From the NCBI RefSeq assembly GCF_003669035.1, contig NZ_CP033070.1:2604001-2668000 (forward strand): a stretch of 64,000 nucleotides of DNA, written 5' to 3'. Origin of the DNA: Chryseobacterium sp. 3008163. GTDB lineage: Bacteria; Bacteroidota; Bacteroidia; Flavobacteriales; Weeksellaceae. The position numbers were made by a program, and so were the translations under genes. The notes below the pieces were generated by a model. It had not been told where the DNA came from, did no database searches, and worked only from the letters and a program-made list of their open reading frames with translations. Numbering within the stretch: the stretch's first letter is position 1; every line of letters starts with the position of its first letter. Below are positions 2,313 through 17,895 of the stretch, one piece after another.

Positions 2313-2332
2313 GAGCTTTTTATTAAGACACA

Positions 2333-4574
2333 TTATTTTTCTAAAATTGGTATTTCTATATAACTGTCGTTGTACCATTTTATTTCCAATGGTTCTTTTG
2401 CATCAGCTATTGTTTCTTCGCTTACATCTTTTCCAGTACCGTAGTTAATTTGTGCATCAGGACTTTTTCTTACACCTAATAATATAATTAACTTGCTGCC
2501 TTTTTCTATTTTTCTACTTGTGAAAAATGTATTTTTAATAGGGATTGTCTCTATTTTATTGGGTTTAAGTAAGCTTCTTTTTGTGTTGTCTTTGGAATAG
2601 CTTGCTCTTGCAAAATGCTCGTGTGTTAATTTAAAATATTGCCCATTGGCAAGTTTTTCATAAATATTTAGGGTAATATCCATGTCTTTTTTATTTATAG
2701 AAGCTTTTAAATTCCCTGTAAAGCTTCCATTTATTTCGAAAGAATCATCAAAAGTTTCGCTCTCAAAAACAACCTTTTCAATTAAATCTCTCTTATAAAT
2801 TACACTATCTAGTATTTTTTCATCATTAAAACTTTGCAGGGTATCTCTTCTGTCTGCAAAATCGATATTTTGAATAATAAAATTTTTCTTAGACTTAATT
2901 TTGTCAAGCTTCTTTTTATTTAAATATAACTTAAGGGTACTATTGCTTATTTTATCAATGCTTGGCGCACTTTTCCATTGATTGGATCCCATTACTTGGT
3001 AATTGACTTTATCCTTTAAAAACTCGGGTTTTTTTTGTCCTTTCAAAATATAATCAAACCATTTGTAAGAAAGATCTTCTAAATCAATATTTGCAACAGA
3101 ATCGATTTTATACCCTTTATATTCTCCCTCAACTCCTGAAACTACTCCGCTGTGACTATATGGGCCAATTATTAAATAATGGTTTGCTTTCTTGTTATAT
3201 TTAAGGTGATTATTGTAATAGTACATTGCTCCTCTCTGATCTGCGTCATAATATCCTGTAAGCGTCAGAACAGGAATATTAATTTTTGCAAAATCCTTTT
3301 TATAAGGAAGTTTTGATTGCCAATAAGTGTCAAAAGACGGATTTTTTAGCCATTTCTGGAATATAGGATTTGTTTTTCCGTATATACTGTCTAATTTATT
3401 AAATGCAGTTCCGTTTTTATAATATGAATTGTATATGGAAAGCCATTTTTTTTCATCATTAAAAAGTTTATGGTCAGTTTCCTTCTTTACATAACTTAAC
3501 CAACGTAACATATAGGGACTAAAGCAATTATTATACATAGGAAAATCAATTCCAAAGCCTACAGATGCGGAAGGAATTATTGTTTTTAAAGCAGGGTGCA
3601 GATTTTTTGTTGCTGCCCATTGACTGAAACCGTCATAACTTCCTCCAATCATTCCTACTTTTCCATTGCTCCAAGGCTGCTTAGAAATCCATTCTATTAC
3701 TTCATTTACATCTTCAATTTCGAATTCAAATGGTGTAATTTGATCTTTACTTAAATAAATCCCTCTGCTAAAAGCATATATAATATTATAGCCTCTATTT
3801 GCATTTGTTTTTGCATTAGAAATAAAATAATCATTATTACGGAGGTATGTTGAAAAATGTAAAATAGAAGGCTTTGGTTGCTTTATTTTTTATCAAGTAC
3901 ATAGTAAAGAGTTATTTCGTTCCCATTTTTTGTTTTAACGATAACACTATCTTTCACTAAAAATTCTTCTTTATCTAATTTTTTTAATAACGGAATCGCT
4001 GTTGCAAAAGTTTCTTTAATAATGGTGTGGTAATTAAAATGTCTGCAAAGTAAGATTGCATTTTTTAAAGTAATACTATCTTCTGATATACTATCTTTTA
4101 ATATTTTTTTTATTTCCTTTTTATTGTAACCATCTTTAAATTTGAAAGCATCAGGAACAAGGCTTTTTGAAGACAACGGAAGTTCATTATATTTTTTTTC
4201 AAGAATTTTTTGATAAATTGGTCTAATATCTTCGTTCTGTTTGAAGCTTTTTTAGCCAAAATAAAAATTTCGAATTGAATTCCTGCCATCCTTGAATAGT
4301 CTGGATATGAATTTTTATAAATATTGCGGAAGTTATTTAATGTTTTTAAAGCACCATCATAGTTTTTATTTAACATTTGAAATCTCATATAATTGTCATT
4401 GAATTTGAGAGAATCACTTTCTTTATATAATTCCATAAGCTCCTTACTTAGAGTAAGGAGCTTATTTTCAAATTCAGGATTTTCAAATTCTATTTTCTTA
4501 AAATATAGTTTTTGAGAAAAACATAATGATACTAAGAACAGAAATAAAATACACAGAAAATACTTTTTATTCAT
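2333..4574 (-). CDS. Secreted CocE/NonD-type (S15-like) hydrolase, two frame breaks as written
   Basis: Three overlapping reading frames join into one protein of about 747 aa. Residues 1-20 are a signal peptide (MNKKYFLCILFLFLVSLCFS). A helical, TPR-like region of about 200 residues follows. The alpha/beta hydrolase part starts near VKTKNGNEITLYYVL and carries the nucleophile motif GGSYDG, an acid candidate in GYYDADQRG and a histidine in GPYSHSG; the C-terminal part resembles the family's jelly-roll domain. The frame changes once in the T8 run at 4192-4199 and once in the T6 run at 3886-3891, each consistent with one lost base, and sequence homologous to the family continues across both. It starts 10 nt after the GG-leader peptide gene and is followed by the prolyl oligopeptidase. 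Either a sequencing artefact or a recent pseudogene; the first is more likely given the other breaks in this window. Confidence 0.8.
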
Positions 4575-4584
4575 TTTTCAAATA

Positions 4585-4811
4585 TTAATAATACCCAGCT
4601 CCACCGCCGCCGTTTCCTCCATCATCACCTCCAAGAATAACAATAGGGGGTAATTTTGTAGTTGTAGCTGTTTTTGGTGGGGTTTTAGTATTTGTTGTAT
4701 CTCCACCTGTCATAGTAGCATCATCTCCACCACCACCTTTAATGATATTCAACTGAGTAATTTGTAATTTTTTTAAAGATAATTTTTTTCAAATTGGTTT
4801 TTCTTTTTCAT
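4585..4811 (-). CDS. GG-leader RiPP-like precursor peptide, frame broken in a T7 run
   Basis: Too short and too broken for standard gene finding. From the ATG at 4811 the frame reads MKKKNQFEKN and then stops. Restoring one base in the T7 run at 4783-4789 gives a 75-aa peptide with leader KKLSLKKLQITQLNIIKGG and a core rich in Gly, Thr, Asp and Pro ending GGGGAGYY. 'LSLKKLQI..' leaders ending in GG are typical of Bacteroidota natural-product and bacteriocin-like precursors, including peptides named class I lanthipeptides. The core has no Cys, so lanthionine rings cannot form. No LanB or LanC gene is visible. It is the first gene of an apparent operon with the CocE-type hydrolase 10 nt downstream. 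The leader match is clear; the product and the modification are unknown. Confidence 0.6.
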
Positions 4812-4948
4812 TTATAGGATATTTAAAATATTAATTGGGTGGCAAATTAAGCTCTTTATTTTAAATACTAAAAAAACTATTAGTCGAAATTGATAAATAC
4901 CATGTACTGTTATTCCGCAAGAGACTAATAATCAGGCTGTTATTTTTA

Positions 4949-6679
4949 TCACTGCTCGTTTAACAATTTAATATAATATGAAGGCAATGTTCCTGTAATT
5001 TTCTTGAAAGCATTAGAAAATGATTCAGGATTGTTAAATCCAATATCTTCTGCAATTGCTGATATGGTATATTTCCTCAGTTTTTCATTACTCTTTAGTT
5101 CTTCTACGATATAATTAATCCGCAATTCATTCAAATACTGAGAAAAATTCTTTCCTTTTAGTTCATTAACCGATTTTGAAAGATAATCACGGTTTGTTCC
5201 CAAATCTTTTGCTAATCCATCTATCGTTATATTTTTATGTAGAAAATCTTTATTGACTTCAAACAACATAAGTTTTGATTTTAATTCTTGTAGTATATTA
5301 TTTGGGATTGTACTCCTAACCTTTTCTCCAATAGATTTACTTTCAATAATGTCATTATTATGAACTGGTGTTATTTGAAGTGAGCTTTCTTTTAGTGAGT
5401 TTGTTAATAAGAGTTCTGCTTGCTTTTGATATTCTTTTACTTTCTTTCGGTTTTTAGTGAACATAAAAAGCAATATTGAAAGAATAATCAACCCGCCCCC
5501 TAAGCACCAGTATAACACAGAGTTTTTGTTGTTTAAATCATTAATTAGTTCTTCTTTTTTCTCTAATAATAGTGGGGTGTCATATTTTTTATAAATTTCT
5601 TTTGACAGATACTGTTTACTGTTATTGATTATACTGTCTGCGTAGAATAATTTGTCAATATATTTAAGCTGTTTTTCTTTGTCTCCTGTTTTTTTGTAGT
5701 AGTCAATCAAGACTTCATAACCATCCCGTGTAATTGGGTAAAACTCTTTGGAAAAAGCCAAAACAGAATCCGCTTTGATAAAATACATTACAGCAATGTT
5801 ATCTTTATGAATATCGTGATTGATTTTACCTAAGAAATAGTAAGTTATAGCTAAATTTCCGTAATCATTATTTTTCAGAAAACTCTTTTCGGCTTCCAGA
5901 TGGTTATCAGAAGCTATTTTATAATTTTTCAAATAGTAATTAGCAATCCCTGTTCCTGATACAAAATATGGGTAGTGTGTATAATCTTTAAATCTATTAC
6001 ATTCCTTAAGTCCAATATTTATATAATTTAAAGCATTTTTGTATTGCTTGTCTTTATTATAGCAATTTGCTACAGAAAAGATTGAGCCTATATAGCTTTT
6101 AACATCTTGATCTTTTGTATTGATTTTTTGTTTTTGATAATTATAATATTCTAAGAAAAGGGGAAGAGCTTCTTTGTTTTCGTCAGTAGCTGTTTTTAGG
6201 ATTCCGATAAGCTTTTTGATATAGAAGAACTGATCTGAGTTTTTATTTTTGGATAATTTTTGCGCTTCAATATAATGATCAAGAGCTTCTGCGTATTTCC
6301 AATCATAATTGTATAAAATACCTTTTATAATATGTGCTTTCGCCGGATATTCTTTTGTATTAACGTTTTCTGTAATCATTAATAAAGAATCAGCATACGG
6401 ATGCCCATTTTCAGATTTTAGACCTTTTGTATGAGCTACTCTATAATATCCGTCATAGATAAGATCATTATTTCTTTCTTTTTTTCCTTTTCTTAAAATT
6501 GTATTTGCATATATTTCTGCCTTATTATTATCAATTCTAAAAACTTTATCGTAAGATTTTTGTAATTCTTCGAGGTTTTTATTTTTCAAAGAATCTGGTA
6601 CTGCAAAGTTTTTTATGCTTTGCGAAAAGAATAAATTTTGGGAGATCAGAATTAAAATAATAGAAAAAAATCGAAACAT
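4949..6679 (-). CDS. TPR-containing membrane regulator with AraC-type HTH
   Basis: A 576-aa one-component regulator of a kind common in Chryseobacterium. It has a signal peptide (MFRFFSIILILISQNLFFSQ) and about 350 residues of TPR-like helical repeats predicted to lie outside the cytoplasmic membrane. One transmembrane helix follows (VLYWCLGGGLIILSILLFMF, near residue 400), then a linker and a C-terminal AraC-type DNA-binding domain over roughly the last 100 residues, with the typical GFNNPESFSNAFKKITGTLP signature. It lies upstream of the GG-leader peptide gene on the same strand and next to the divergent grasp-with-spasm cluster, so it could control either. The ligand is unknown. Confidence 0.85.
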   Translation of the reverse strand: MFRFFSIILILISQNLFFSQSIKNFAVPDSLKNKNLEELQKSYDKVFRIDNNKAEIYANTILRKGKKERNNDLIYDGYYRVAHTKGLKSENGHPYADSLLMITENVNTKEYPAKAHIIKGILYNYDWKYAEALDHYIEAQKLSKNKNSDQFFYIKKLIGILKTATDENKEALPLFLEYYNYQKQKINTKDQDVKSYIGSIFSVANCYNKDKQYKNALNYINIGLKECNRFKDYTHYPYFVSGTGIANYYLKNYKIASDNHLEAEKSFLKNNDYGNLAITYYFLGKINHDIHKDNIAVMYFIKADSVLAFSKEFYPITRDGYEVLIDYYKKTGDKEKQLKYIDKLFYADSIINNSKQYLSKEIYKKYDTPLLLEKKEELINDLNNKNSVLYWCLGGGLIILSILLFMFTKNRKKVKEYQKQAELLLTNSLKESSLQITPVHNNDIIESKSIGEKVRSTIPNNILQELKSKLMLFEVNKDFLHKNITIDGLAKDLGTNRDYLSKSVNELKGKNFSQYLNELRINYIVEELKSNEKLRKYTISAIAEDIGFNNPESFSNAFKKITGTLPSYYIKLLNEQ

Positions 6680-6843
6680 TTGTATTTTTATGATGCAAAA
6701 TTACATTTTTTTTAGAATTTAATCCTTTTTTAAATATTATTATTAATATTTTGAATATTAAGTATTTATAATTATTCCTGGTGATGGTTTTTATCAATTT
6801 AGAATACTCAACTTCCGAAATTTACCAATTTCGATATATCATG

Positions 6844-6875
6844 TTTTGTTTTTTCATAAAGCTCCTGCATCTTTG
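6844..6875 (+). promoter_or_regulatory. Candidate promoter of the precursor peptide genes
   Basis: TTTTG at 6844-6848 and CATCTTTG at 6868-6875 are separated by 19 bp. This resembles the Bacteroidota pattern TTTG-N19-TAnnTTTG with one mismatch in the -7 element (C for the first T). It lies about 135 nt before the first precursor gene, in a 210-bp region between the divergent regulator and the cluster. No other equally good match was seen there. Confidence 0.4.
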
Positions 6876-7009
6876 CTTCAACAAAAACACAAATGTTTAT
6901 TTTTTGTATGTGTACAGTACAAAATTATAAATATGAAGCGCTGATCAGCAAAAAACCCATGTCAGGGATTGTATGGCAAAATTAATTACTAAATTTAAAA
7001 TTTAACAAG

Positions 7010-7237
7010 ATGAAAAATTTAACAAATCTTAAAAACAAAGAAATTAAAATCCAAGCAATGTCGAATATTTATGGATGTGGACAATGGGTGACAACAAGTC
7101 CACCAGATACAAAAGATGCTAACGGTTGTACTGTACATACTACAGATTCTTGGTATGATGCTAACGGAAATGGAAAAAGAGGATCAGATGAATCAATGAC
7201 AATGTGTGTATCTGTAGATTGTGGAAATAATGGTTAA
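7010..7237 (+). CDS. Grasp-with-spasm precursor peptide 1
   Basis: A 75-aa peptide. The first 24 residues form a Lys/Asn-rich leader ending SNIYGCG. The remaining core is polar, with Thr, Ser, Asp and three Cys, and contains D-A-N-G-N-G followed by SDES, a spacing like an EF-hand calcium loop (D1, N3, N5, G6, E12). The neighbouring peptide has the same leader end (NIFGRG) and the same VH..D...D.NGNG...DE core pattern. Hydroxyl and acidic side chains are those joined by ATP-grasp ligases into omega-ester links, and such a ligase is encoded at 8542. The precursor role is inferred from position, size, the shared leader/core design and the exporter downstream. Confidence 0.7.
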   Translation: MKNLTNLKNKEIKIQAMSNIYGCGQWVTTSPPDTKDANGCTVHTTDSWYDANGNGKRGSDESMTMCVSVDCGNNG

Positions 7238-7247
7238 ATTGACGTAC

Positions 7248-7451
7248 ATGAATTCTAGACTTAATTCTAAAAAAATAGATTCTAAAAATGCAAAAAATAT
7301 TTTTGGAAGAGGTCCGAGTTTACAACACAGTAGCATGACCTTATTGAAAGTACATTGGGAGGATGTTTATGTTGATAACAATGGAAATGGGCAAACAGAT
7401 GAAGGCGATAAAATTGTTTCGATTGTTGCTGTTAATTCGAGTACAAACTAA
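7248..7451 (+). CDS. Grasp-with-spasm precursor peptide 2
   Basis: A 67-aa peptide if the ATG at 7248 is used; this gives a leader of about the same length as peptide 1, while the ATG at 7230 would overlap the end of gene 1. The leader ends AKNIFGRG. The core has KVHWEDVYVDNNGNG then TDEGD, aligning with VHTTDSWYDANGNG of peptide 1. D-N-N-G-N-G-Q-T-D-E-G-D again has the 12-residue spacing of an EF-hand loop (D1, N3, N5, G6, D12). No Cys is present. Together the two peptides look like duplicated, diverged substrates of the downstream ligase. Confidence 0.68.
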   Translation: MNSRLNSKKIDSKNAKNIFGRGPSLQHSSMTLLKVHWEDVYVDNNGNGQTDEGDKIVSIVAVNSSTN

Positions 7452-7522
7452 TACAAGTAATCTCAAACTTATTTATTTTAGTTGAAAATTCTTCGATATC
7501 AAGAAGAAGAATAATTAAAATT

Positions 7523-7550
7523 GGCTGTTTTCACAATTGTGAAAACAGCC
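7523..7550 (+). terminator. Perfect 14-bp inverted repeat between precursors and enzyme genes
   Basis: GGCTGTTTTCACAA is followed directly by its exact reverse complement, 72 nt after the second precursor and 18 nt before the next gene. An RNA hairpin here could partly stop or stabilise the upstream transcript, so precursor mRNA would exceed enzyme mRNA. The sequence after it on the plus strand is A-rich, not a T run, so it is not a textbook intrinsic terminator. Confidence 0.55.
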
Positions 7551-7568
7551 TAATTAAAAAAAGAAATT

Positions 7569-8549
7569 ATGAAGTTTTTTACATTAATATTTTTATTAAA
7601 AATCATCTTAGTGTTTTCTCAAACTTCTGAGGAAAAATATATTTTAAGCAAAAACTTTATTTATCTCGCTAAAATGGATGCTTATAAAAAAGATTATCAA
7701 TCATCTAATAATAGATATGGCAAGGCTTTTAAATTACATAAAGTCGAAGACTCAAATGACTTATTAGATGCTGCATCAGTGGCTTTTGAGATTAATAATA
7801 GAAAACTTGCGAAAGAATATATTGTTGAAGCTATTGTTGGATATAACGCTCCTAAAGAATTTGTATTAGAATACAAAGGACTGCAAAAATTTAAAAAAGA
7901 TCAAATTTTTACAGATATAGAAGTAAACTATGAAAATTATGTTGAAGAATATTATAAATCTAAGAAAAGTATTGCGGCTTATATAGAAGTAGAAAAACTC
8001 ATTGAAAAAGATCAAAATATACGCAACCTACACATTAATATTACAAAAAAACTCCCTAGAAATATTAAGGATAAAAAAAGATTGGATAGCATTTTTAATC
8101 AACAAATGATAGAAGTTGATTCTATTACTACTAATTCTTTAATTGAAATTACAAAAAAATATGGTTACCAAGATAAAGGTTGGATTATTTTATGGCATCA
8201 GAGAGGACAAGAATACAAGAATGAAAACAGTAAGTTCTGGAAATTTTTCAAACCTCTTATAAAAAAAGAAATAGAAAATGGAAACCTTCATAAAAGTTTC
8301 TTTGCAATGTTTGATGATGAATACGAAATAATTAATAGCGGAAAACAAGTATATGGTACTTATTCAGATTATTTTGAAGTATATCCAATAAAAGATATTA
8401 GTGGTATCGATGCAAGATTAAAGCAAATCGGATTTCCCCCCCTATTATATGATAAATTAATTTATGGCAAAAAGTTGCCTGAAGGTTATACTCTTACGGA
8501 AGACCAACTATATCAAGAATTATTAAGCAGAGTAAAAGGATATGATTGA
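7569..8549 (+). CDS. Secreted DUF6624-like protein in the RiPP operon
   Basis: A 326-aa protein with an N-terminal signal (MKFFTLIFLLKIILVFSQ). The middle is helical and Lys/Glu-rich. The C-terminal 120 residues resemble DUF6624: a YGYQDKGWIILWHQRG stretch, a helix corresponding to a 'gel-to-DR' segment (FFAMFDDEYEIINSGKQ), then VYGTYSDYFEVYPIKDISG and IDARLKQIGFPPLL. The family assignment comes from remembered motif patterns and needs a profile search. Its stop overlaps the ATP-grasp start by 8 nt (ATGATTGA), so it belongs to the operon. Its role is unknown; a periplasmic partner or processing factor for the exported peptide is possible. Confidence 0.6.
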   Translation: MKFFTLIFLLKIILVFSQTSEEKYILSKNFIYLAKMDAYKKDYQSSNNRYGKAFKLHKVEDSNDLLDAASVAFEINNRKLAKEYIVEAIVGYNAPKEFVLEYKGLQKFKKDQIFTDIEVNYENYVEEYYKSKKSIAAYIEVEKLIEKDQNIRNLHINITKKLPRNIKDKKRLDSIFNQQMIEVDSITTNSLIEITKKYGYQDKGWIILWHQRGQEYKNENSKFWKFFKPLIKKEIENGNLHKSFFAMFDDEYEIINSGKQVYGTYSDYFEVYPIKDISGIDARLKQIGFPPLLYDKLIYGKKLPEGYTLTEDQLYQELLSRVKGYD

Positions 8550-9480
8550 GATTATTACTCAAAAAACAGATAAGAGCACCGATGAAATCTGTAAATGGTT
8601 ATTGTATTACAATTTCGATTTCAAAAGGCATAATGTAGAAGACTTTACTGATTTTTCTTTTTATCTGGGAGCCTCTCAACAAAAAAACACGAAGAATATA
8701 TATCACCGACGAGGAAAACTCAGTACAATAAGGTTCATCAATGATTACTCTATTGATACATATGTACGAGAGGAAACCAACATGTTGCTTAAAGGCTGGG
8801 AAAAAATTTATAAAAATGATCATCAAAGTAATTATATAGGTGAATTTAATGAAGAAGACCAGCATAATAAATTATATGATCTACATATTGCTGAATCTTT
8901 GGGAATAAAAATTCCGGCAACTCTTATAACCAATTCAAAAACAGAACTTATAGCCTTTGCTAGTCAAAGAAAATTGATCACAAAATCTATAAGAAGACCA
9001 ATAAGCTTGAACTCCAAAGGTTTTACTTTCAGTGATATTGGAACATATCGGGTTAAAAAAAATGATATAAGAAAATTAAAAAGCCATTTTTCACTAAGCT
9101 TATTTCAAGAATATATAGAGAAAAAATATGAAATAAGAGCTTTCTTTTTTAAAGATAAGATCTTTCCAATGGCAATTTTTTCGCAAAAAGATACACAGAC
9201 AAAATACGATTATCGCAATTATAATCTGGAAACTCCCAACCGATGTGAACCTGTAAAACTGCCTGAAAAAATTGAGAAAAAGATATTTGCTTTTTTCAAA
9301 GCGAAAAATATAAATACCGGCTCAGTTGATTTAATTGTGAGTGCTGAAAATGAGTTTTATTTTTTAGAAAATAATCCACAGGGACAATTCAATTGGTTGT
9401 CTGAGAACTGTAATTATAATATCGAAAAATATATAGCCGAAGACCTTATCAAAAATGAAAAAAAAGAAAATCAAGACTAA
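8542..9480 (+). CDS. gwsG: Grasp-with-spasm ATP-grasp peptide ligase (GwsG-like)
   Basis: A 312-aa ATP-grasp protein of the size of graspetide ligases (MvdC/MvdD type, about 300-330 aa). ATP-grasp features appear in order: an N-terminal domain, SLGIKIPATLITNSK, the nucleotide-binding lysine in ITKSI, FQEYIEKKYEIRAFFF, the acidic residue in GSVDLIV, and the metal-binding ENNPQGQF near the C-terminus. These enzymes use ATP to join Asp/Glu side chains to Ser/Thr or Lys side chains of a precursor. The nearby SPASM gene identifies the 'grasp-with-spasm' subtype. The start overlaps the previous gene; the end overlaps the next small ORF by 26 nt. Confidence 0.85.
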   Translation: MIEIITQKTDKSTDEICKWLLYYNFDFKRHNVEDFTDFSFYLGASQQKNTKNIYHRRGKLSTIRFINDYSIDTYVREETNMLLKGWEKIYKNDHQSNYIGEFNEEDQHNKLYDLHIAESLGIKIPATLITNSKTELIAFASQRKLITKSIRRPISLNSKGFTFSDIGTYRVKKNDIRKLKSHFSLSLFQEYIEKKYEIRAFFFKDKIFPMAIFSQKDTQTKYDYRNYNLETPNRCEPVKLPEKIEKKIFAFFKAKNINTGSVDLIVSAENEFYFLENNPQGQFNWLSENCNYNIEKYIAEDLIKNEKKENQD

Positions 9481-9646
9481 TTCTTATAATTCTACCCATA
9501 TTTTTAACTCGAAAACAAAAAAGAGTTATACTCCGGAGATAGCTGTCCGTAATAGATTTATAAAGATATCTTCACTTCAGAATAATTATAAGGAAATGGA
9601 AACTTTCTATAAACCTGTTTCCCGAATCATCGAAATAAAATTATGA
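9455..9646 (+). CDS. Small basic protein between ATP-grasp and SPASM genes
   Basis: A 63-aa ORF (MKKKKIKTNSYNSTHIF...) that begins inside the 3' end of the ATP-grasp gene and ends in an ATGA overlap with the SPASM gene, so translation of all three is probably coupled. It is basic, has no Cys, no signal peptide and no obvious leader/core layout. It could be an accessory or recognition protein, or a third substrate. I do not recognise the family. Confidence 0.55.
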   Translation: MKKKKIKTNSYNSTHIFNSKTKKSYTPEIAVRNRFIKISSLQNNYKEMETFYKPVSRIIEIKL

Positions 9647-10719
9647 GTTTTTTAAAAATTTTCCAAAGCTGTAAGCTGGTAAAAGGTTATACAAATTATT
9701 TGATCTGTGATATACAAAGAAATAACATTATAAATATTCCGGCTGATTTATATGAATGGATTGTAGAAAATGAAAGCAAAGAAATTAATATAGAAGAAAT
9801 TCAAATAATAGATGTCAATTTATTTGATAATATCAATTTTTTAATCGAAAATGAGTTTGTTTTTATAACAGACATTCCTGATTTGTTCCCAAAAATAGAT
9901 GATAATTTTTATGCTCCAAGCAAAATAAGTAATGCTATTATTGATATATCTCCTCAGATTTTTTCTGAACTAGAACATGTTATTTTTCAGTTGTCAGAAT
10001 TGCTCTGTCAAACCATAGAGTTTCGGTTCTTTCATTTAGCCACAGAATCTGAAATTCATAGCATCATAAATATTATTGAGAAAAATTCACTATTTATAAG
10101 CTCTGTTGGTTTTATACTACCATTTAGTGATGATATTAATTATAAAGAATTGATTGATATAAACAGAGTTTTTTATCTTCAGGTCTATAATAGCAATTCG
10201 AGTGAAATAATTTATTCGTCAGATAGCAAAAGTTTTATATATTATTCCACAGATAATCTGAATTCAGAAAAATCATGCGGAATAGTTTATGAAGCTGCAT
10301 TTACACTTAATAAATATTCTTTTTTGGAATCATTGCATCACAATTCATGCCTTCATAAAAAAATGGGAATTGATGTAAATGGAAATATTAAGAACTGCCC
10401 TTCCATGCCCCAAAGCTTTGGAAATATAAAAGATACAACCTTAGAAGAAGCCTTACATCACAAAGACTTCAAAAAATATTGGAATCTTACCAAGGATAAA
10501 ATAGAAGTTTGCAAAGATTGTGAGTTTCGTTATATTTGTACAGATTGCAGAGCTTATACTGAAAGGACACATGAAGATAAAGAAGGATTAGATATTTCAA
10601 AACCTTTAAAATGTGGTTATGATCCTTATACTGGTGAGTGGGAAGAGTGGAGTATCAACCCACTCAAAGAGAAAGCGATAAAGTACTATGGCGTGCAAGA
10701 ATTGGTTAAGAAATATTAA
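9643..10719 (+). CDS. gwsS: Grasp-with-spasm SPASM-domain peptide maturase (GwsS-like)
   Basis: A 358-aa protein. The C-terminal 130 residues have SPASM-type cysteines: one in SCLHKKMG, one in IKNCPSMPQSFGN, then C-x2-C-x5-C-x2-C (CKDCEFRYICTDCRAY) and a last one in LKCGYDPYTG, enough to bind auxiliary iron-sulfur clusters. The N-terminal two thirds lack the CxxxCxxC motif of radical SAM enzymes, as I recall for the grasp-with-spasm maturase family. Its reaction is not established; it may act in peptide binding or as a second modification step. The start overlaps the previous ORF (ATGA). Confidence 0.8.
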   Translation: MSFLKIFQSCKLVKGYTNYLICDIQRNNIINIPADLYEWIVENESKEINIEEIQIIDVNLFDNINFLIENEFVFITDIPDLFPKIDDNFYAPSKISNAIIDISPQIFSELEHVIFQLSELLCQTIEFRFFHLATESEIHSIINIIEKNSLFISSVGFILPFSDDINYKELIDINRVFYLQVYNSNSSEIIYSSDSKSFIYYSTDNLNSEKSCGIVYEAAFTLNKYSFLESLHHNSCLHKKMGIDVNGNIKNCPSMPQSFGNIKDTTLEEALHHKDFKKYWNLTKDKIEVCKDCEFRYICTDCRAYTERTHEDKEGLDISKPLKCGYDPYTGEWEEWSINPLKEKAIKYYGVQELVKKY

Positions 10720-10730
10720 ATCACAATTAA

Positions 10731-12926
10731 TTGGCAAAAAAATTCCCCTTTTACCTTCAGCCGGATTCCAAAGACTGCGGTCCCACATGTCTGAGAATAG
10801 TCAGCAAATATTACGGCAAAAGCATTTCTTTACAACAAATTCGTAACCTCTCAGAAACGACAAGAGAAGGAAGCAGTCTGCTTGGTTTGAGCGATGCTGC
10901 TGAAGATTTAGGCTTCCGTTCTTTGGGAGTGCAGATCGATTTTAATACATTGGCTGAAGAAGTTCCTTTCCCTTGTATTGTACACTGGAACAAAAATCAT
11001 TTTGTAGTTGTCTATAAAATCGATAAAAATAGCATTGTTTACATTTCAGATCCGAGTTATGGTTTAATTACCTACACAAGGGAAGAATTTATCAAACGAT
11101 GGATCGGCGAAAATGCCAATGAAAATACAGAAGAAGGAATCGTATTGATCCTTGAAACCACACCTGCGTTTTTCCAAACTGAATTTGACGATCAGGAAAG
11201 TAAAGCTAGTTTTTCTTTTCTTTCAAAGCATCTGCTTAAGTATAAATCATTGATCGTTCAGTTGGCGGTGGGTTTACTGGCGGGAAGTTTACTTTCTTTG
11301 ATTCTTCCTTTCCTTACCCAAAGTATTGTGGATGTGGGGATTCAGAATCAGGATCTTAATTTTATCTATCTGGTTTTATTGGCTCAGGTTATGCTTTTTC
11401 TTGGCAGAATGGGAATTGAGGTCATCCGAAGCTGGATTTTGCTTCACCTTTCCACCCGAATCAATATCTCGATTATCTCAGATTTCTTTATTAAATTAAT
11501 GAAGCTTCCCATCAGTTTCTTTGATACGAGAATGACGGGGGATATCATGCAAAGAATCAACGATCATCATAGAATTGAGCAGCTTTTGACCAATTCTTCT
11601 TTGAATACATTATTCTCATTAGTCAATTTGATCATTTTCAGTATCGTTTTACTATTCTATGATTACAGATTATTTGTTGTTTATCTGGTTGGTGCGATTT
11701 TATATATCGGATGGATCACTTTTTTCCTCGGAAAACGAAAAGAACTCGATTACAAAAGATTTTCACAGGTTTCCCAAGAACAAAGCAAAGTTATTGAGCT
11801 CATCAACGGTATGCAGGAAATCAAAATGCACAACGCCGAAAAACAAAAACGTTGGGATTGGGAGTTTCTGCAGGTTAAATTATTTAAAATCAGAATAAAA
11901 TCTCTTTCACTTGAGCAATGGCAGTCTGTCGGTGGAAACTTTATCAATCAAATGAAAGACATTCTGGTGAGTTTTCTTTCTGCCAAATTGGTTTTGGAAG
12001 GAAACCTTACTTTGGGGATGATGCTTTCTGTTCAGTACATTATCGGTCAATTGAATAGCCCTTTATTACAACTCATTGATTTTATCAAACAGACTCAGGA
12101 TGCTAAAATTTCTTTGGAAAGATTGGGCGAAATTCACGATAAGGAAGACGAAGAAAGTAAAGATGAGCAATATGCTACCGAAATTCCGGAAAAAGATATC
12201 GAAATCAGCAATATGTCTTTCAGATATATTGGTTCGGATGTTCCTGTTTTTGAAAATTTAAGTTTAAATATTCCTTATCAGAAGACAACGGCAATCGTCG
12301 GAGCCAGCGGAAGTGGAAAAACGACGCTTTTAAAATTATTAATGAAATTTTATGAACCCAACGAGGGCGAAATAAAAATTGGGAATACCCAGATGAAAAA
12401 TATTTCGCCAAGATTCTGGAGAGATCAGTGTGGCGTCGTAATGCAGGAAGGATATGTCTTTAATGATACGATTGCAAACAACATTGCAGTGGGTGAAGAC
12501 TATGTAGATAAATCAAAACTGAGAAAAGCAGTCGAAATTGCCAATATCAAAGAGTTCATTGAAGGATTGCCTTTAAGCTACAACACAAAAATCGGAAACG
12601 AAGGACTTGGTGTGAGTGGCGGACAAAAACAAAGATTGTTCATCGCAAGAGCAGTTTATAAATCTCCGGAATATATTTTCTTCGATGAAGCCACAAGTGC
12701 TTTGGATGCGAATAATGAGAAAGTAATCATGGAAAATCTGGAACAGTTTTTTGAAGGTAAAACAGCCATTGTGATTGCCCACAGATTGTCAACCGTAAAA
12801 CATGCGGATAAAATTATCGTTTTAGATAAAGGTAAAGTGGTGGAAGAGGGAAATCATGCGGAATTGGTATCTTTAAAAGGTGAATATTACAGACTCGTTA
12901 AAAATCAGTTAGAACTTGGAAACTAA
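10731..12926 (+). CDS. C39-peptidase ABC exporter (leader-cleaving)
   Basis: A 731-aa peptidase-containing ABC transporter that cleaves leaders and exports peptides. Domain order is C39 peptidase (Gln10, Cys16 in DSKDCGPTC, His90 in KNHFVVV, Asp107 in SDPSYG), six transmembrane helices (about 165-450), then an ATPase with Walker A GASGSGKT (524-531), signature VSGGQKQR and Walker B YIFFDEATSALD. The start is TTG at 10731, because an in-frame stop lies directly upstream and the C39 domain needs these residues. It is 11 nt after the SPASM gene. The double-glycine-like GCG/GRG ends of the two precursors are plausible substrates for its peptidase. Confidence 0.92.
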   Translation: MAKKFPFYLQPDSKDCGPTCLRIVSKYYGKSISLQQIRNLSETTREGSSLLGLSDAAEDLGFRSLGVQIDFNTLAEEVPFPCIVHWNKNHFVVVYKIDKNSIVYISDPSYGLITYTREEFIKRWIGENANENTEEGIVLILETTPAFFQTEFDDQESKASFSFLSKHLLKYKSLIVQLAVGLLAGSLLSLILPFLTQSIVDVGIQNQDLNFIYLVLLAQVMLFLGRMGIEVIRSWILLHLSTRINISIISDFFIKLMKLPISFFDTRMTGDIMQRINDHHRIEQLLTNSSLNTLFSLVNLIIFSIVLLFYDYRLFVVYLVGAILYIGWITFFLGKRKELDYKRFSQVSQEQSKVIELINGMQEIKMHNAEKQKRWDWEFLQVKLFKIRIKSLSLEQWQSVGGNFINQMKDILVSFLSAKLVLEGNLTLGMMLSVQYIIGQLNSPLLQLIDFIKQTQDAKISLERLGEIHDKEDEESKDEQYATEIPEKDIEISNMSFRYIGSDVPVFENLSLNIPYQKTTAIVGASGSGKTTLLKLLMKFYEPNEGEIKIGNTQMKNISPRFWRDQCGVVMQEGYVFNDTIANNIAVGEDYVDKSKLRKAVEIANIKEFIEGLPLSYNTKIGNEGLGVSGGQKQRLFIARAVYKSPEYIFFDEATSALDANNEKVIMENLEQFFEGKTAIVIAHRLSTVKHADKIIVLDKGKVVEEGNHAELVSLKGEYYRLVKNQLELGN

Positions 12927-14220
12927 AAAAGACATTTTAGACAATATAGAACTCCGCTCAGAAAGTGTTCAGGATATTCTCACAGAACCGCCACACTGGA
13001 TGTTCCGATGGGGAAATACGATTATATTAATCATATTATTGATGATTCTTGCGATGAGTTACATCATCAAATATCCGGAATTTGTTCCGGCACCTATTAT
13101 TGTGACTTCACAAAATCCACCGGAAAAAATCGAGGCAAGAAGCAGTTCGAAAATCGAAAAAATATTCATCAAAGATCATCAGAAGGTAAAAAAGGGCGAT
13201 GTTTTGTTAGTTTTGCAGTCTACTGCACACTATCAGGATGTTTTAAAGTTGAAAAAAATAGTAGATTCTATCGCTTCTGATCAATTGCTTTCTTTTCCCG
13301 TGAATGAAGCTTCCCATTATAAACTGGGCGAACTTCAAGCCGATTACAATAGCTTTGCAAAAGCTTTCCAAGATGAGAATTTATTTACAAGATTGCAGCC
13401 TTATGCACCAGAAAACCTTGCTGCCAATCAAAGTATCTCAGAATCACGAGGCAGAATTATTAATTTGAGACAGCAGAGAAACCTTGAAGCTGCAAAAACT
13501 GAACTCACCCGCAAGAATTATCAGAGATCACAAGAGTTGTTCAATCAGGGCGTAATTGCGGCGGTAGAGTTGGAAGGCGAAAAACTAAAATACCTTCAGG
13601 CTCAGCAGAATTTAGAAAACATAAGTATTTCTTTATCTCAAATGCAAGAAAGTATTTCGAATCTCAATAAAACAAAAAGTGGAGCGGCCATCAATACCGA
13701 AAAAGATAAAATTACGTATTCATCCCAGACTCTGCAGCTATTTGAGCAATTAAGAAAATCTCTTAAACAATGGGAGCAAACCTATCTCATTGTTTCTTCT
13801 ACCGACGGAATGGCGAGTTTTCAGCAGTTTTATGGTGAAAATCAATTCGTAAAAGCGGGAGATCCGATTGTTTCAATTTTACCAGATCATACAGAGCAAC
13901 TGGTGGGAAGAATGTCTGTGCCGACAGCAAATTCTGGGAAGATTATTCCCGGAGAAAAAGTTTTAATTAAATTAGACAATTACCGTTTTCAGGAATACGG
14001 AATCATTGAAGGGAGAGTGCAAAACATCTCTCTGATTCCCGATGATAAAGGAAATTATTACGTAGATGTTGTTCTGCCAAAAGGCTTAAAAACATCATAT
14101 AACAAAACTTTAAAGTTTGATAAAGAACTGAGAGGAAATGCAGAAATCGTTACTCAGGATCTTAGATTGATTGAAAGGTTTTTCTATCAGATCAGAAAAT
14201 TGCTGGGGTATCAATCATAA
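12916..14220 (+). CDS. HlyD-family periplasmic adaptor of the exporter
   Basis: A 434-aa membrane-fusion protein with a short cytoplasmic N-terminus, one transmembrane helix (TIILIILLMILAMSYII, about residues 35-52), a split biotinyl-lipoyl domain (IEKIFIKDHQKVKKGDVLLVL), a long coiled coil (about 130-260) and a C-terminal beta-barrel (VKAGDPIVSILP). It links the C39 ABC protein to an outer-membrane channel; no TolC-type gene is adjacent. The start is TTG and overlaps the ABC gene by 11 nt, so the two are translationally coupled. Confidence 0.9.
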   Translation: METKKDILDNIELRSESVQDILTEPPHWMFRWGNTIILIILLMILAMSYIIKYPEFVPAPIIVTSQNPPEKIEARSSSKIEKIFIKDHQKVKKGDVLLVLQSTAHYQDVLKLKKIVDSIASDQLLSFPVNEASHYKLGELQADYNSFAKAFQDENLFTRLQPYAPENLAANQSISESRGRIINLRQQRNLEAAKTELTRKNYQRSQELFNQGVIAAVELEGEKLKYLQAQQNLENISISLSQMQESISNLNKTKSGAAINTEKDKITYSSQTLQLFEQLRKSLKQWEQTYLIVSSTDGMASFQQFYGENQFVKAGDPIVSILPDHTEQLVGRMSVPTANSGKIIPGEKVLIKLDNYRFQEYGIIEGRVQNISLIPDDKGNYYVDVVLPKGLKTSYNKTLKFDKELRGNAEIVTQDLRLIERFFYQIRKLLGYQS

Positions 14221-14240
14221 ATCTGATTCAACTTAAAAAA

Positions 14241-14306
14241 ATCTGTGTCAATCTGTGAAATCTGTGGGAAGAATTACTCTCCATGGATTTCACAGATTTT
14301 CACAGA
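14241..14306. repeat. Inverted repeat of AATCTGTG units
   Basis: Two 22-bp arms (14241-14262 and 14285-14306) match at 20 of 22 positions as inverted copies and enclose a 22-nt loop. The arms are built from short direct repeats of ATCTGTG. A related block lies at 63726-63756, also next to a gene end. It may act as a transcript end structure or be a dispersed intergenic element. Confidence 0.6.
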
Positions 14307-14324
14307 TGATACTGTTTGAAAATA

Positions 14325-14352
14325 AAAAAACCGAACTCAACGTCCGGTTTTA
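14325..14352 (-). terminator. Hairpin terminator between convergent genes
   Basis: AAAACCG and CGGTTTT arms flank a short loop and are followed on the minus strand by a T run. It sits 4 nt beyond the stop of the 2OG oxygenase gene. The structure is nearly symmetric, so it may also end the exporter operon from the other side. Confidence 0.75.
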
Positions 14353-14355
14353 AAA

Positions 14356-15306
14356 TTATTTTTTGATCAATCCCAATTCAATTAATCTTTCGTGTAAAAA
14401 TTCTCCTGCAGTTGTATCTTCATACAGTTTAGGGTGGTTTTCATCTACACAGTTTTCAAGCGCATTCAGCGACATTTCGCTCACCGGGTGCATAAAGAAA
14501 GGGATAGAATATCTTGAAGTTCCCCACAATTCTCTTGGCGGATTAACCACTCTGTGAATCGTAGACTTTAATTTATTATTGGTATGTCTCGAAAGCATAT
14601 CTCCAACGTTAATCATCAATTCGTCTGGTTCTGCAATCGCATCAATCCATTCTCCTTTATGATTTTGTACCTGAAGACCTTTTCCCTGAGAGCCCATCAA
14701 AAGAGTAATCAAGTTGATGTCTCCATGAGCAGCTGCTCTTACTGCATCATCCGGTTCCTGAGTGATTGGCGGATAATGAATTGGTCTTAAGATAGAATTA
14801 CCTTCTGCAATTTTATCATCAAAATAAAACTCATCAAGACCAAGGTACAATGCCAACGCTCTCAAAACATATTTTCCTGTTTTTTCTAGCATTTGATAAG
14901 TTTCCTTTCCTACTTCATTAAATTTTGGAAGTTCGTCTACGATGACATTGTCGGGATACTGGCTTTTGTATTTTGAGTCATCCGAAACATACTGCCCGAA
15001 ATGCCAAAACTCTTTCAAATCGCCTTTTTTAAATCCTTTTGCAGTTTCTTTTCCGAAACCTACATAACCACGTTGTCCGCCGATTCCGGGGATCTCGTAC
15101 TTTTGTTTGGTTTCTGTGGGAAGTTCAAAGAAGTTTTTTACTTCTCCATAAAGATCATCTACGAGTTGGTCATCCAGGAAATGTCCCTTTAAGGCAACAA
15201 AACCAATTTCTTCGTAAGCTTTTCCGATTTCATTTACAAATTTCTGTTTGCGTTCCGGGTTGTCCGAAAGGAAATCACGCAGGTCTACACTAGGTATTTT
15301 ATCCAT
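14356..15306 (-). CDS. 2-Oxoglutarate/Fe(II)-dependent oxygenase, isopenicillin N synthase-like
   Basis: A 316-aa cytosolic dioxygenase. The N-terminal DIOX_N-like region (IPSVDLRDFL... EIGFVALKGH) is followed by the Fe2OG domain with His194-x-Asp196 (AAAHGDINLIT), distal His251 (STIHRVVNPP) and the 2-oxoglutarate-binding Arg265 in RYSIPFF. The length is normal for the family. It is transcribed alone, divergently from menD. The substrate cannot be deduced; many flavobacteria carry a close homologue as an isolated gene. Confidence 0.88.
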   Translation of the reverse strand: MDKIPSVDLRDFLSDNPERKQKFVNEIGKAYEEIGFVALKGHFLDDQLVDDLYGEVKNFFELPTETKQKYEIPGIGGQRGYVGFGKETAKGFKKGDLKEFWHFGQYVSDDSKYKSQYPDNVIVDELPKFNEVGKETYQMLEKTGKYVLRALALYLGLDEFYFDDKIAEGNSILRPIHYPPITQEPDDAVRAAAHGDINLITLLMGSQGKGLQVQNHKGEWIDAIAEPDELMINVGDMLSRHTNNKLKSTIHRVVNPPRELWGTSRYSIPFFMHPVSEMSLNALENCVDENHPKLYEDTTAGEFLHERLIELGLIKK

Positions 15307-15381
15307 TTTATAGAAATTTTACGTGATGCTAAAATACAGTTTTTTTGAATTAAATCATTTTACAATTAATTATTTATAAAC

Positions 15382-15389
15382 TAAATTTG
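15382..15389 (+). promoter_or_regulatory. -7 promoter element of menD (leaderless)
   Basis: TAAATTTG matches the Bacteroidota -7 consensus TAnnTTTG and ends 4 nt before the menD ATG at 15394. If initiation occurs at the usual distance, the transcript would begin at or next to the start codon. No good TTTG was found 19-21 bp upstream. Confidence 0.6.
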
Positions 15390-15393
15390 CTCT

Positions 15394-17069
15394 ATGAAAA
15401 AATATTCCTCCAAGAGAAGTATTCAGGTACTTGCCAATCTTTTTCAGCAATACGGAATTTTAGACGTTGTCATATCTCCGGGATCTCGAAATGCTCCTTT
15501 GGCGATTCATTTTTCGGAAGTGGATGATTTCAACTGTTATAGTATTGTTGACGAAAGAAGTGCAGCCTTTGTGGCTCTTGGGATGGCAATGAGCGAGAAA
15601 AAACCCGTTGCAATTACTTGTACAAGCGGTTCTGCAGCTGCAAATTATTATCCTGCCGTGACCGAAGCTTTTTATTCAAACATTCCGATGTTAATTTTGA
15701 CGGCAGACCGACCGACTGATTATGTTGATTTGTTTGACGGACAAACCATTAGACAAAACAATCTTTTCCATCAGCATTCTTACGGAGATTTTCAATTGGT
15801 GGAAGACAGCAAAGATGATGCAGAAAGCATCAATTCAGATATTATAAAAAAGCAATCGAGCTTTGTTTTGAAAAGCAAGGTCCGGTTCATATCAATATTC
15901 CTTTGGAAGAACCTTTGTATGACTTAGTTTCTGAACTTCCGACTTTTCCTAAGGTTGAGAAAACAATCAAGAAAAAAGAATACGAAATCCCATCAAATTT
16001 AGTAGCAGAATGGAATACTTCACAGAGAATTATGATTCTGGTTGGGACAAAAGATTACAGTCCGGAACTGGAAAATCAATTGGCGCAATTGGTGAAAAAT
16101 CATTCAGTGGTTGTTTTGAGCGAAGCTAATTCAAATTTATATCACGAAAAGTTTTTCAAACATATTGATCGCTATATTTTTGCTTTTACAGAAGAGGATT
16201 TTAAAACGTATGCTCCGGATTTATTGATTACGGTCGGACAAAACGTGGTTTCAAAAAAAGTAAAACAGTTTCTAAGAAATGCACATCCGAAACAGCATTG
16301 GCACTTGGATGAGGTTTGGCAACCTGACACCTATTTTGCTTTAACGCAGAAATTGGAGATTAAACCAGAGCTTTTCTTTTCTAAATTATTAAATTTCATC
16401 AACTTAGAGCCAAGGCCTTACTACAATCTTTGGGATGTTTTAAGGGATAAAAAAGATAAAAAACATAAAGACTTTTTAAATTTAACAGAGTTTTCAGATT
16501 TTTATTTCTTTAATAAAGCTTCGCAAAGCATTCCTGAAAATTACAATATTCATTTCAGCAACTCGTCGGCAATTCGTTATGCACAGTTGTTTGATTTTGG
16601 TAAAAGAAAAATGTATTGCAACAGAGGAACCAGCGGAATTGACGGTTCAACTTCCACAGCAATGGGTTTTGCCATAAAAAATGCAAATCCGACTTTGTTG
16701 ATTACGGGAGATTTAAGTTTCTTCTACGACATCAATGGACTTTGGAATCAATATATTCCACCGTTTACAAGAATTATTATTTTCAATAACGGGGAAGGAA
16801 ATATCTTCAAAATTATTCCCGGGCCAGGAAATGCCAACTCCAATACGGTTGACGAATTTATCTCAACAAAACATCATAAAAATGCCGAGTTTTTAGCGAA
16901 GCATTTCGGTTTTTCTTACGTAAAAGTTGATGATGACGGAACTTTAGACCGTGTTTTTGATAATTTCTTTAAACCTGATGTGCAACCTAAGATCATGGAA
17001 GTCAATACACAGGGGAAGAATAATGCGGATACGCAGAAGGCCTATTTTAATTTTTTAAAGGAAAACTAA
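15394..17069 (+). CDS. menD: MenD (SEPHCHC synthase), one frame break as written
   Basis: Catalyses the ThDP-dependent addition of 2-oxoglutarate to isochorismate in menaquinone synthesis. Restoring one A in the A6 run at 15846-15851 gives a 558-aa protein, the usual MenD length, reading through IIKKAIELCFEKQGPVHINIP. MenD signatures are clear: SPGSRNAPLAIHF near the N-terminus, TSGSAAANYYPAVTEA, LTADRP, and the C-terminal ThDP site (NRGTSGIDGSTSTAMGFA, then ITGDLSFFYDINGLWN and NNGEGNIF). Without the repair the gene stops after 177 codons. Menaquinone is the only quinone in most flavobacteria, so a real knock-out is unlikely. Confidence 0.88.
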
Positions 17070-17207
17070 GAAATGTTGAACCATTAAGGAAAGTTAAGCA
17101 GTTAAGATAGGTTAAGAAAAATCTGTAGATTTTTTAAGCATAAATTCTTACGGCGAAGCTAAATTTTAATATTCTAAACTCCTTAAAAAATCGTAATGAT
17201 AAAAAAA

Positions 17208-17234
17208 GCAGATTTATAATTTAATAAATCTGCT
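17208..17234. terminator. Bidirectional terminator between menD and the pabC-like gene
   Basis: AGCAGATTTAT and ATAAATCTGCT form an 11-bp perfect stem with a 5-nt loop, A-rich on the left and T-rich on the right. It lies between two convergent genes. Confidence 0.75.
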
Positions 17235-17268
17235 TAATTAGTTTAATCTGCGAGAGTATATTTTAAAT

Positions 17269-17895
17269 TTACATATCCAAATAATCATCATTCCCCGGAA
17301 GATTAGTAATCTTCGAAATAGGATAAATGAACATGTCGTCAAAGTCATTTAGCGCATTAATTAATTGAAAATGTGAGAATTCCTTGATGTTTTGTAAAGT
17401 GATTTCTGCTTCTTTGATTTTCTTTTTCTTTAAAAGATGCTGTCTTTGAACTCCATTTAAAAGATAAGTTGACGGGGTAAACCATTCTTTCCCTTTTTGG
17501 AATAAAAGATTAGAAAATGAAGTGTCGGTAATGTGGTTGTTTTTTACAATGATGATTTCTTCAGCTTTAGATTTCATCTTCATTTTCTCTAGTTCTTTAC
17601 GGTCTTCGAACTTAAAAGAATAATCATAAATGTTATTCTCCACCAATTGAAAATCCTGTATCTCCGGTATTGCGTAAGGAATCATCATGGTTCTGAATTT
17701 CTTATCCAGATCATAAGTTAATCTTAGTTTGTACAAGCCATCCTCATCATGATTCAGGTTTTTAAAGATTTTTTCCAAATCAATAGAACCTTCTTTCCCG
17801 AAATGGGCAAAAGTATCGTTGACACGTTTTTGGTGATATTCTAGCAGGAACAATTCCTGATCTTCTACTTTAATGCTTTCAATGAATTGGGACAT
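17269..17895 (-). CDS. pabC: Aminotransferase class IV (aminodeoxychorismate lyase-like)
   Basis: A 208-aa PLP protein of the short class IV type found beside pabB. The PLP lysine candidate is in YDYSFKFEDR; ADEIIIVKNN of the family appears here as AEEIIIVKNNHITDTSFSN, followed by LLNGVQRQHLL. It overlaps pabB by 17 nt on the same strand. The likely role is conversion of aminodeoxychorismate to 4-aminobenzoate and pyruvate for folate synthesis; a branched-chain aminotransferase-like role is less likely given the partner. Confidence 0.75.
   Translation of the reverse strand: MSQFIESIKVEDQELFLLEYHQKRVNDTFAHFGKEGSIDLEKIFKNLNHDEDGLYKLRLTYDLDKKFRTMMIPYAIPEIQDFQLVENNIYDYSFKFEDRKELEKMKMKSKAEEIIIVKNNHITDTSFSNLLFQKGKEWFTPSTYLLNGVQRQHLLKKKKIKEAEITLQNIKEFSHFQLINALNDFDDMFIYPISKITNLPGNDDYLDM

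Follow-up and report, generated by a model that had tools for sequence, protein, structure and literature searches.

A grasp-with-spasm graspetide cassette in a probable expression-and-export socket of Chryseobacterium

How does an A+T-rich set of peptide-modification genes come to stand directly before an exporter that recurs across its genus? This question is raised by positions 7010-14220 of a 64,000-nucleotide (nt) stretch of Chryseobacterium sp. 3008163, hereafter the window (C1:2604001-2668000, where C1 is the single contig of the 4.56-Mb genome). Judged by its genes, the region is confirmed as a one-way cluster of the grasp-with-spasm graspetides, a known and uncharacterised group, with a predicted ring-bearing product. 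The best explanation as a whole, which we consider probable, is that this graspetide cassette occupies an expression-and-export socket. Genome comparisons indicate the following parts: (i) a left arm with a regulator gene and a promoter/leader block; (ii) a right arm with a C39 ABC/HlyD exporter; and (iii) cargo between the two, which is different in relatives that carry the same arms. The regulator and the promoter/leader block lie to the left of the cluster and were absent from an earlier list of its genes, and they belong to the system. The features are as follows.

4949..6679, minus strand: divergent regulator with a signal peptide, a TPR region, one transmembrane segment and a C-terminal AraC-type helix-turn-helix domain
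6844..6875, plus strand: putative promoter, TTTTG (6844-6848), 19 nt, then CATCTTTG (6868-6875)
6877..7012, plus strand: structured 5' leader (covariance model R1) of about 130 nt, with P1, P2 and a probable pseudoknot
7010..7237, plus strand: precursor peptide A, 75 amino acids (aa), EF-hand-type loop at 7157-7192
7248..7451, plus strand: precursor peptide B, 67 aa, EF-hand-type loop at 7374-7409
7569..8549, plus strand: DUF6624-like secreted helical protein (PF20329, E = 0.014)
8542..9480, plus strand: ATP-grasp graspetide synthetase, a predicted macrocyclase (TIGR04192 best match)
9455..9646, plus strand: 63-aa linker protein in the LPL-family position, C-terminal FYKPVSRI, without the LPL motif
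9643..10719, plus strand: SPASM protein (TIGR04193), containing the cassette joint at about 10316-10400
10731..12926, plus strand: C39 peptidase-ABC exporter with a TTG start, the proposed fixed right arm of the socket
12916..14220, plus strand: HlyD-type membrane fusion adaptor (NCBIfam/Pfam profiles)

A preliminary description of this DNA had proposed a one-direction cluster of two precursors, a DUF6624-like protein, an ATP-grasp enzyme, a 63-aa open reading frame (ORF), a SPASM protein, a C39 ABC exporter and an HlyD adaptor. All of these are present in the ORF list, all on the plus strand, and from 7569 onward the genes abut or overlap one another; the start of precursor B was taken as the ATG at 7248 (the listed ORF begins at GTG 7221). 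Protein families were assigned with NCBIfam and Pfam profiles, and the genes at 8542 and 9643 proved to match the families named for them. The SPASM protein scored 312.8 bits against TIGR04193 (cut-off 175), and for the ATP-grasp protein TIGR04192 was the best of 12 families (209.3 bits, E = 8.6e-62, below the curated cut-off). The latter aligns with AMdnB (7m4s, E = 9.3e-25), the C-terminal segment ENNPQGQ included, and also with the solved enzyme CdnC through the C-terminal segment. The exporter contains Peptidase_C39 (E = 4.5e-35) plus ABC membrane and ATPase domains, and the regulator matched HTH_18 (E = 2.4e-15) and TPR_12 (E = 0.001), its signal peptide and transmembrane segment being judged by eye.

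Probable exchange of cargo before the exporter

A search with the exporter DNA found matches in 170 of 173 genus genomes, mostly over the ABC gene. The positions at which similarity to individual relatives begins and ends are informative. The nearest relative, G197, shares 10316-18618 at 94.5 % identity, with no window match further left in the stretch compared. G199 matches 5041-7017 (81 %) and, after a gap, 10327-10680 and 10737-16834 (88 %); G216 matches 4756-7017 (75 %) and 10399-14220 (87 %); G302 matches up to 7033 (72 %) and then 10736-14214 (90 %); G292 matches 4412-7017 (73 %) and then from 10340 (88.5 %). Because similarity breaks at these points in G199, G216, G292 and G302, the cargo appears to change just past the start codon on the left; on the right, the joint falls at about 10316-10400 within the SPASM gene or else where the exporter gene begins.

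These comparisons bear out the earlier proposal of a modification module fused to a general exporter, since the exporter DNA is widespread in the genus and relatives share it with other cargo. The base composition on which that proposal had drawn requires some correction. The step is real, with a G+C fraction of 0.278 over 7010-10315 versus 0.367 over the ABC and HlyD genes; however, the A+T-rich zone extends leftward over the regulator (0.28) and the intergenic DNA (0.233), and the joint lies inside the SPASM gene rather than at its end.

The neighbourhood of the exporter was compared in 26 loci, consisting of six earlier ones (three of them chosen for the leader) and the 20 top rows of the exporter DNA search. 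The leader lies upstream in 15 of the 26. Cargo was read in 14 loci, and among it are further graspetide sets, Sec peptides and a bacteriocin-like pair that brings a separate transporter. For example, in G216 the exporter is preceded by SPASM residues 249-357 only, without an ATP-grasp gene. About nine SPASM fragments with the C-terminal part only, resembling this scar, were seen in other family genomes and are possible footprints of further exchanges.

The genome itself contains further sets of this kind. A second grasp-with-spasm set, with an LPL-type small protein, is located 16.5 kb upstream (window -9368 to -5521, or about 632-4480 of locus L005); it has a frame break in the SPASM gene and ends with an exporter stub of about 270 bp. 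A segment of 682 bp, made up of the 3' end of SPASM and the beginning of the exporter, is common to this set and the window copy (92 %), and the identity between the two SPASM genes changes from 39-56 % over 9701-10362 to 94-99 % over 10463-10961. Direct repeats of 221 bp, 84 % identical, flank the second set, and in G216 both flanks join with a single repeat copy, a junction that is, on this alignment, an empty site. Another exporter stub, of 1182 bp (98 % identity), closes a third peptide cassette near C1:2517400.

The conserved leader

Within the genus nothing matches the DNA at 6700-10330 over a long stretch, yet about 150 bp ahead of precursor A recur widely. This block can be folded into the following elements.

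6902-6908/6918-6924, plus strand: P1, 7 bp
6940-6949, plus strand: P2, 3 bp, within a perfect 10-bp palindrome, GCTGATCAGC
6956-6978, plus strand: probable H-type pseudoknot, 31 nt ahead of the start codon
CCC 6956-6958/GGG 6965-6967, plus strand: pseudoknot stem S1, which crosses S2
6960-6964/6974-6978, plus strand: pseudoknot stem S2, 5 bp

The pairing statistics rest on 111 distinct copies in two sets, namely 57 aligned rows (set 1, from 63 iterated nhmmer matches after six repeated loci were dropped) and 54 distinct elements outside those 57, aligned by the covariance model (set 2). In set 1, 96.1 % of cells pair, compared to 36-45 % in slid controls; two-sided changes occur at 11 of the 18 pairs, and covariation is 0.186 versus 0.130 +- 0.006 in shuffled alignments. 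The corresponding values for set 2 are 96.4 % (slid control 38-44 %), 13 of 18, and 0.260 versus 0.138 +- 0.007. RNAalifold, unaided, recovered only P2 and four S2 pairs from the 57 rows. The excess of G-U over A-C cells (54:8 in set 1, 37:5 in set 2) suggests that the leader acts as RNA and not as a DNA dyad. The pseudoknot ends 29-35 nt before the ATG in the 24 loci, out of 30, that a search pattern caught.

Against Rfam 15, positions 6600-7600 gave six matches with E values of at most 5 (best 0.77), none anywhere near its gathering score, and six other leader loci gave none at gathering score. Like the structured leader RNAs of Rfam, the element is a covarying 5' leader, but in the stretches searched it reached the threshold of no Rfam 15 family. 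The alignments point to a conserved leader, unmatched in Rfam, that is a folded RNA with covarying hairpins and a probable pseudoknot. A literature search on Chryseobacterium RNA motifs and peptide-gene leaders, which left most subscription papers outside, returned nothing relevant among the 10 of 750 and 10 of 125 matches listed. Two other identities were considered and set aside: a mobile repeat or attC-like site, because the G-U/A-C asymmetry and the near-fixed distance to the ATG point to RNA, and a transcription terminator, because no U run follows S2, as judged by eye. The centre of GCTGATCAGC is GGCC in two copies and AGCT in another (L294), and P2 might act as a site of RNA dimerization or kissing.

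The promoter at 6844-6875 is one that we take to be of the Bacteroidota type. A [TC]ANNTTTG box lies upstream of 103 of the 111 elements, compared to 14.8 expected from shuffles, and therefore the element is probably transcribed; in 91 of the 103 the box stands 130-150 nt ahead of the end of the modelled region. A TPR-AraC homologue was found within 450 nt of 60 of the 111 elements, 24 divergent and 36 tandem.

Matches to the leader model number one in this genome. They occur in 138 of 173 genus genomes, in 51 of 197 family genomes (44 of 50 being genus members) and in 26 of 296 order genomes (24 genus members and two marginal cases). In 108 of the 111 cases the leader is directly followed by an ORF, whose length is 42-196 aa with a median of 65.5 (one runs off the end of the stretch), and nearly all of these have an N-terminus of exported-peptide type; the other three have no following ORF in the stretch searched. 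These ORFs comprise 86 of Gly type (loose pattern), 21 of Sec type (pattern) and the window's own GCG, and 74 have GG within residues 9-48. The control, 2658 small ORFs on the opposite strand, gave 796, 283 and 141 for Gly type, Sec type and GG, respectively. By eye, the peptides include graspetide precursors, class II bacteriocin-like GG peptides and small Sec proteins. Among 70 SPASM rows of the 197 family genomes (fragments, below-cut-off rows and several rows of other genera being left out), 37 have a leader within 9 kb upstream, and 39 of the 96 leader elements of the family scan stand before one of these 70 genes. The leader can serve as a search handle, in that any gene that follows it is a candidate for an exported peptide, irrespective of class; thus, unannotated Chryseobacterium bacteriocins and ribosomally synthesized and post-translationally modified peptides (RiPPs) could be listed directly.

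Modification enzymes and precursors

TIGR04193 matches were found in 54 of 197 sampled family genomes (50 over the cut-off) and in 138 of 173 genus genomes (127 over the cut-off). A scan of named genomes gave 443 relatives, of which the best 80, representing 79 distinct loci, were taken; together with the window they form a set of 80 loci, each represented by its longest SPASM ORF only. An ATP-grasp gene is beside the SPASM gene in all 80, an ORF of 35-110 aa lies between the two in 75, and a C-terminal motif related to that of the window's 63-aa protein is present in 53. The 63-aa protein, which ends in FYKPVSRI, occupies the position of the LPL family but has no LPL motif; that family is encoded just upstream of SPASM (PMC8939145, as far as the available part describes it).

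In the available part of Makarova et al. 2022 (PMC8939145), the Branch 5 ATP-grasp loci have in common with the window an ATP-grasp gene, a TIGR04193 SPASM gene, the cluster 23 protein, a small protein upstream of SPASM, diverse GG precursors and an exporter; the SPASM protein is called a radical SAM enzyme there, whereas that of the window lacks the motif. An EF-type loop, a leader RNA and cassette exchange at a fixed exporter are not among the features described in that part, and the term EF-hand does not appear in the paper. The DUF6624-like protein is perhaps the cluster 23 family. Its profile match is weak (E = 0.014), and its AlphaFold model (predicted local distance difference test score 91.5) is all helical; TPR proteins head the list of structure matches, and no PDB structure matched the model at E <= 0.001. 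Graspetide group 14 (Carter et al. 2026, PMC13097080, in the part available) has a SPASM protein beside all its members, as the window does. A literature search on 'grasp-with-spasm', with most subscription papers outside the literature searched, found no paper.

The structure model of the SPASM protein consists of an RRE-like N domain, a degenerate radical SAM barrel and a SPASM domain, and a CX3CX2C motif was found in the first 200 residues of none of the 80 SPASM proteins. Therefore, the protein is probably no radical SAM enzyme, and a role as partner protein is likelier. A PDB sequence search with it returned nothing at E <= 1. It shares domain order and model fold with the RRE-radical SAM-SPASM maturases CteB, TigE and SuiB, but lacks their cluster motif and has 358 residues versus 421-448. 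A comparable case is MirC, the essential partner of the rosaritide synthetase (PMC13097080, available in part), which has a weakly RRE-like N domain; MirC has chaperone-like domains and not SPASM, and for the window's protein we infer the partner role. The motif missing in all 80 relatives means that other chemistry is to be sought in a large uncharacterised graspetide group.

Precursors with the same core precede homologous enzymes in, among others, Chryseobacterium, Flavobacterium and Kordia, in agreement with the preliminary description. A search with precursor A among the ORFs of the 79 named loci and one neighbouring stretch returned 16 other ORFs at E <= 0.01, and those mapped sit upstream of the enzymes on the same strand, as expected of precursors; this nearness is partly by construction, because the loci were fetched around SPASM genes. 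Curated precursor models gave no match to precursors A and B at E <= 1, and TIGR04194 matched one of 32 aligned precursors (E = 0.054). When about 5.8 billion proteins were searched with a profile, 10 matched, and one of these is 95 % identical to precursor A.

The motif D.[DN].[DN]G.{4,6}[DE], picked after inspection of the precursors, occurs in 33 of 439 small ORFs (45-120 aa) upstream of SPASM, in 19 of the 80 loci, and in 6 of 3703 other small ORFs of these loci. Alignment A6 (n = 32) includes 28 of the 33 motif-bearing ORFs (five were omitted) and four neighbours without the full motif. Loop position 1 is D in all 32; position 3 is N in 22 and D in 10; position 5 is D in 21 and N in 11; position 6 is G in 28; and position 12 is E in 20 and D in nine (29 of 32). 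The Asp four residues ahead of the loop is invariant in the 32 precursors, as are D46 and D50 in A6. The resulting DxNxDG.....E corresponds to the ligand pattern of a 12-residue EF-hand loop, in rows of which 28 of 32 were selected by the motif. Loops of the DxDxDG type in EF-hands and dockerins bind calcium; ligand positions 1, 3, 5, 6 and 12 are common to these and the precursors, where the loop stands alone in a short secreted RiPP core and no EF-hand helices are shown. The loop offers a first guess at the role of the product.

Proposed mechanism and alternative readings

In the proposed mechanism, the TPR-AraC regulator would control the promoter, and the folded leader, with its pseudoknot 31 nt before the start codon, would determine how the peptide mRNA is translated or how stable it is. 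In precursors A and B, the ATP-grasp enzyme would form esters between Thr/Ser of the core and Asp/Glu side chains, with a loss of 18 Da each, and the SPASM protein, together with the 63-aa protein, may act as a leader-binding partner or a redox/structural scaffold. The N/D-alternating DxNxDG.....E core loop may bind Ca2+ or another divalent metal; the C39 domain would cut the precursor leader at a Gly-type site (GCG/GRG), the exporter would secrete the peptide, and cargo would be exchanged by recombination. A wider claim, whose chances we judge to be evenly balanced, combines a genus-centred regulatory RNA family, exported unrelated peptides, transmembrane TPR-AraC sensors, a swap socket, a metal-binding graspetide and a non-radical SPASM protein. 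Jointly with these, the RNA family would consist of two hairpins and an H-type pseudoknot, spaced almost constantly from the start codon, and occur largely in this genus and near relatives; the leader would be the left arm of the socket, and whole peptide-maturation cassettes would be swapped before a fixed C39 exporter. New here are a folded leader family that is unmatched in Rfam and linked to exported peptides, a swap site whose joints can be seen, the EF-type core and the apparently non-radical SPASM partner. The leader also makes it possible to test how a single genus handles numerous peptide weapons or signals with a shared control scheme and a shared exporter.

It should be noted that several findings speak against the socket explanation and the mechanism proposed with it. 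No regulator was found within 450 nt of 51 of the 111 leader elements in the sequence examined (the upstream stretch being short for many), and 11 of the 26 exporter loci, including that of G197, have no leader upstream. The model alignment of set 2 favours P1, P2 and S2 and not S1, which is outside the model; in that set 95.0 % of S1 cells pair, with one compensated change only. Under a tree-based null for covariation over all pairs, no E-value was significant, the best (3.2) belonging to a pair outside the structure; per-pair null counts were low only for 114-133, 50-64 and 116-131 (68, 212 and 244 of 155000). The TIGR04192 score of the ATP-grasp protein is under the curated cut-off of 230, and the candidate leader cleavage sites GCG/GRG are atypical. 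Selection by the motif itself of 28 of the 32 loop precursors belongs here too, and EF-hand models matched only three of the 32, weakly (best E = 0.011) and not including precursor A.

The simplest alternative is an ordinary grasp-with-spasm cluster acquired in a single horizontal transfer, with shared flanks as plain synteny and the repeats as chance duplications. The class is indeed known and frequent, as TIGR04193 occurs in 138 of the 173 genus genomes; however, sharp joints at the start codon (G199, G216, G292 and G302) and either within SPASM or where the exporter starts, the SPASM remnant without ATP-grasp in G216, and two further peptide cassettes of the genome that end in exporter stubs make this account quite improbable. 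The left arm could also be a DNA control region, i.e., a promoter with palindromic AraC operators and no folded RNA, and the perfect palindrome GCTGATCAGC, whose centre changes to GGCC on both sides in two copies, and the TPR-AraC gene adjoining 60 of the 111 elements would suit it. The G-U to A-C ratios are unlike those of a double-stranded dyad, the structure is retained in copies with long upstream sequence and no regulator homologue, and the block is downstream of the -7-type box in 103 of the 111, so we regard a pure DNA element as unlikely, if less so than the single transfer.

As to the chemistry, the SPASM protein might function as a radical SAM maturase whose cluster is unusual and make thioether or carbon-carbon links. 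Its model fold matches radical SAM-SPASM enzymes, eight Cys of the SPASM domain are invariant in alignments of 18 and 40 rows, precursor A has four Cys, and the label in PMC8939145 (available part) is that of a radical SAM enzyme. We nevertheless consider such activity very unlikely: besides the missing CX3CX2C (0 of 80), strand 97-102 of the model passes straight into helix 104-107 at the place expected for the cluster loop, Pfam Radical_SAM gave no match at E <= 1, and precursor B has no Cys. A more serious competitor, which we hold to be possible though somewhat short of an even chance, is that the D, N and E residues of the loop are ester acceptors or merely form a turn, with no metal bound. 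Graspetides have Asp and Glu as acceptor residues (PMC13097080, in the part available), and the invariant D46 and D50 would be in place for this. Because N and D interchange at positions 3 and 5, metal coordination fits better than ester acceptors, as N, found at position 3 in 22 and at position 5 in 11 of the 32, cannot accept esters; Gly at position 6 and E/D at position 12 suit a Ca2+ loop.

Several neighbouring genes deserve mention. Just before the 1182-bp exporter fragment (within 30 bp), L298 8492-10594 (C1 about 2516500-2518600) contains a LanC-like gene, as judged by eye. Between the two grasp-with-spasm sets lies a split lantibiotic dehydratase pair, Lant_dehydr_N and Lant_dehydr_C (L005 4764-7666, minus strand). 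A VKOR-thioredoxin fusion gene beside GG-peptide genes (L221 4586-6091) is perhaps a disulfide maker for peptides, and similar genes stand upstream of the exporter in several relatives. To the left of the regulator, window 114-3652 encodes prolyl oligopeptidase-like and CocE/S15-type peptidases, by eye, and part of the CocE/S15-type gene is copied just outside the window with 66 % DNA identity.

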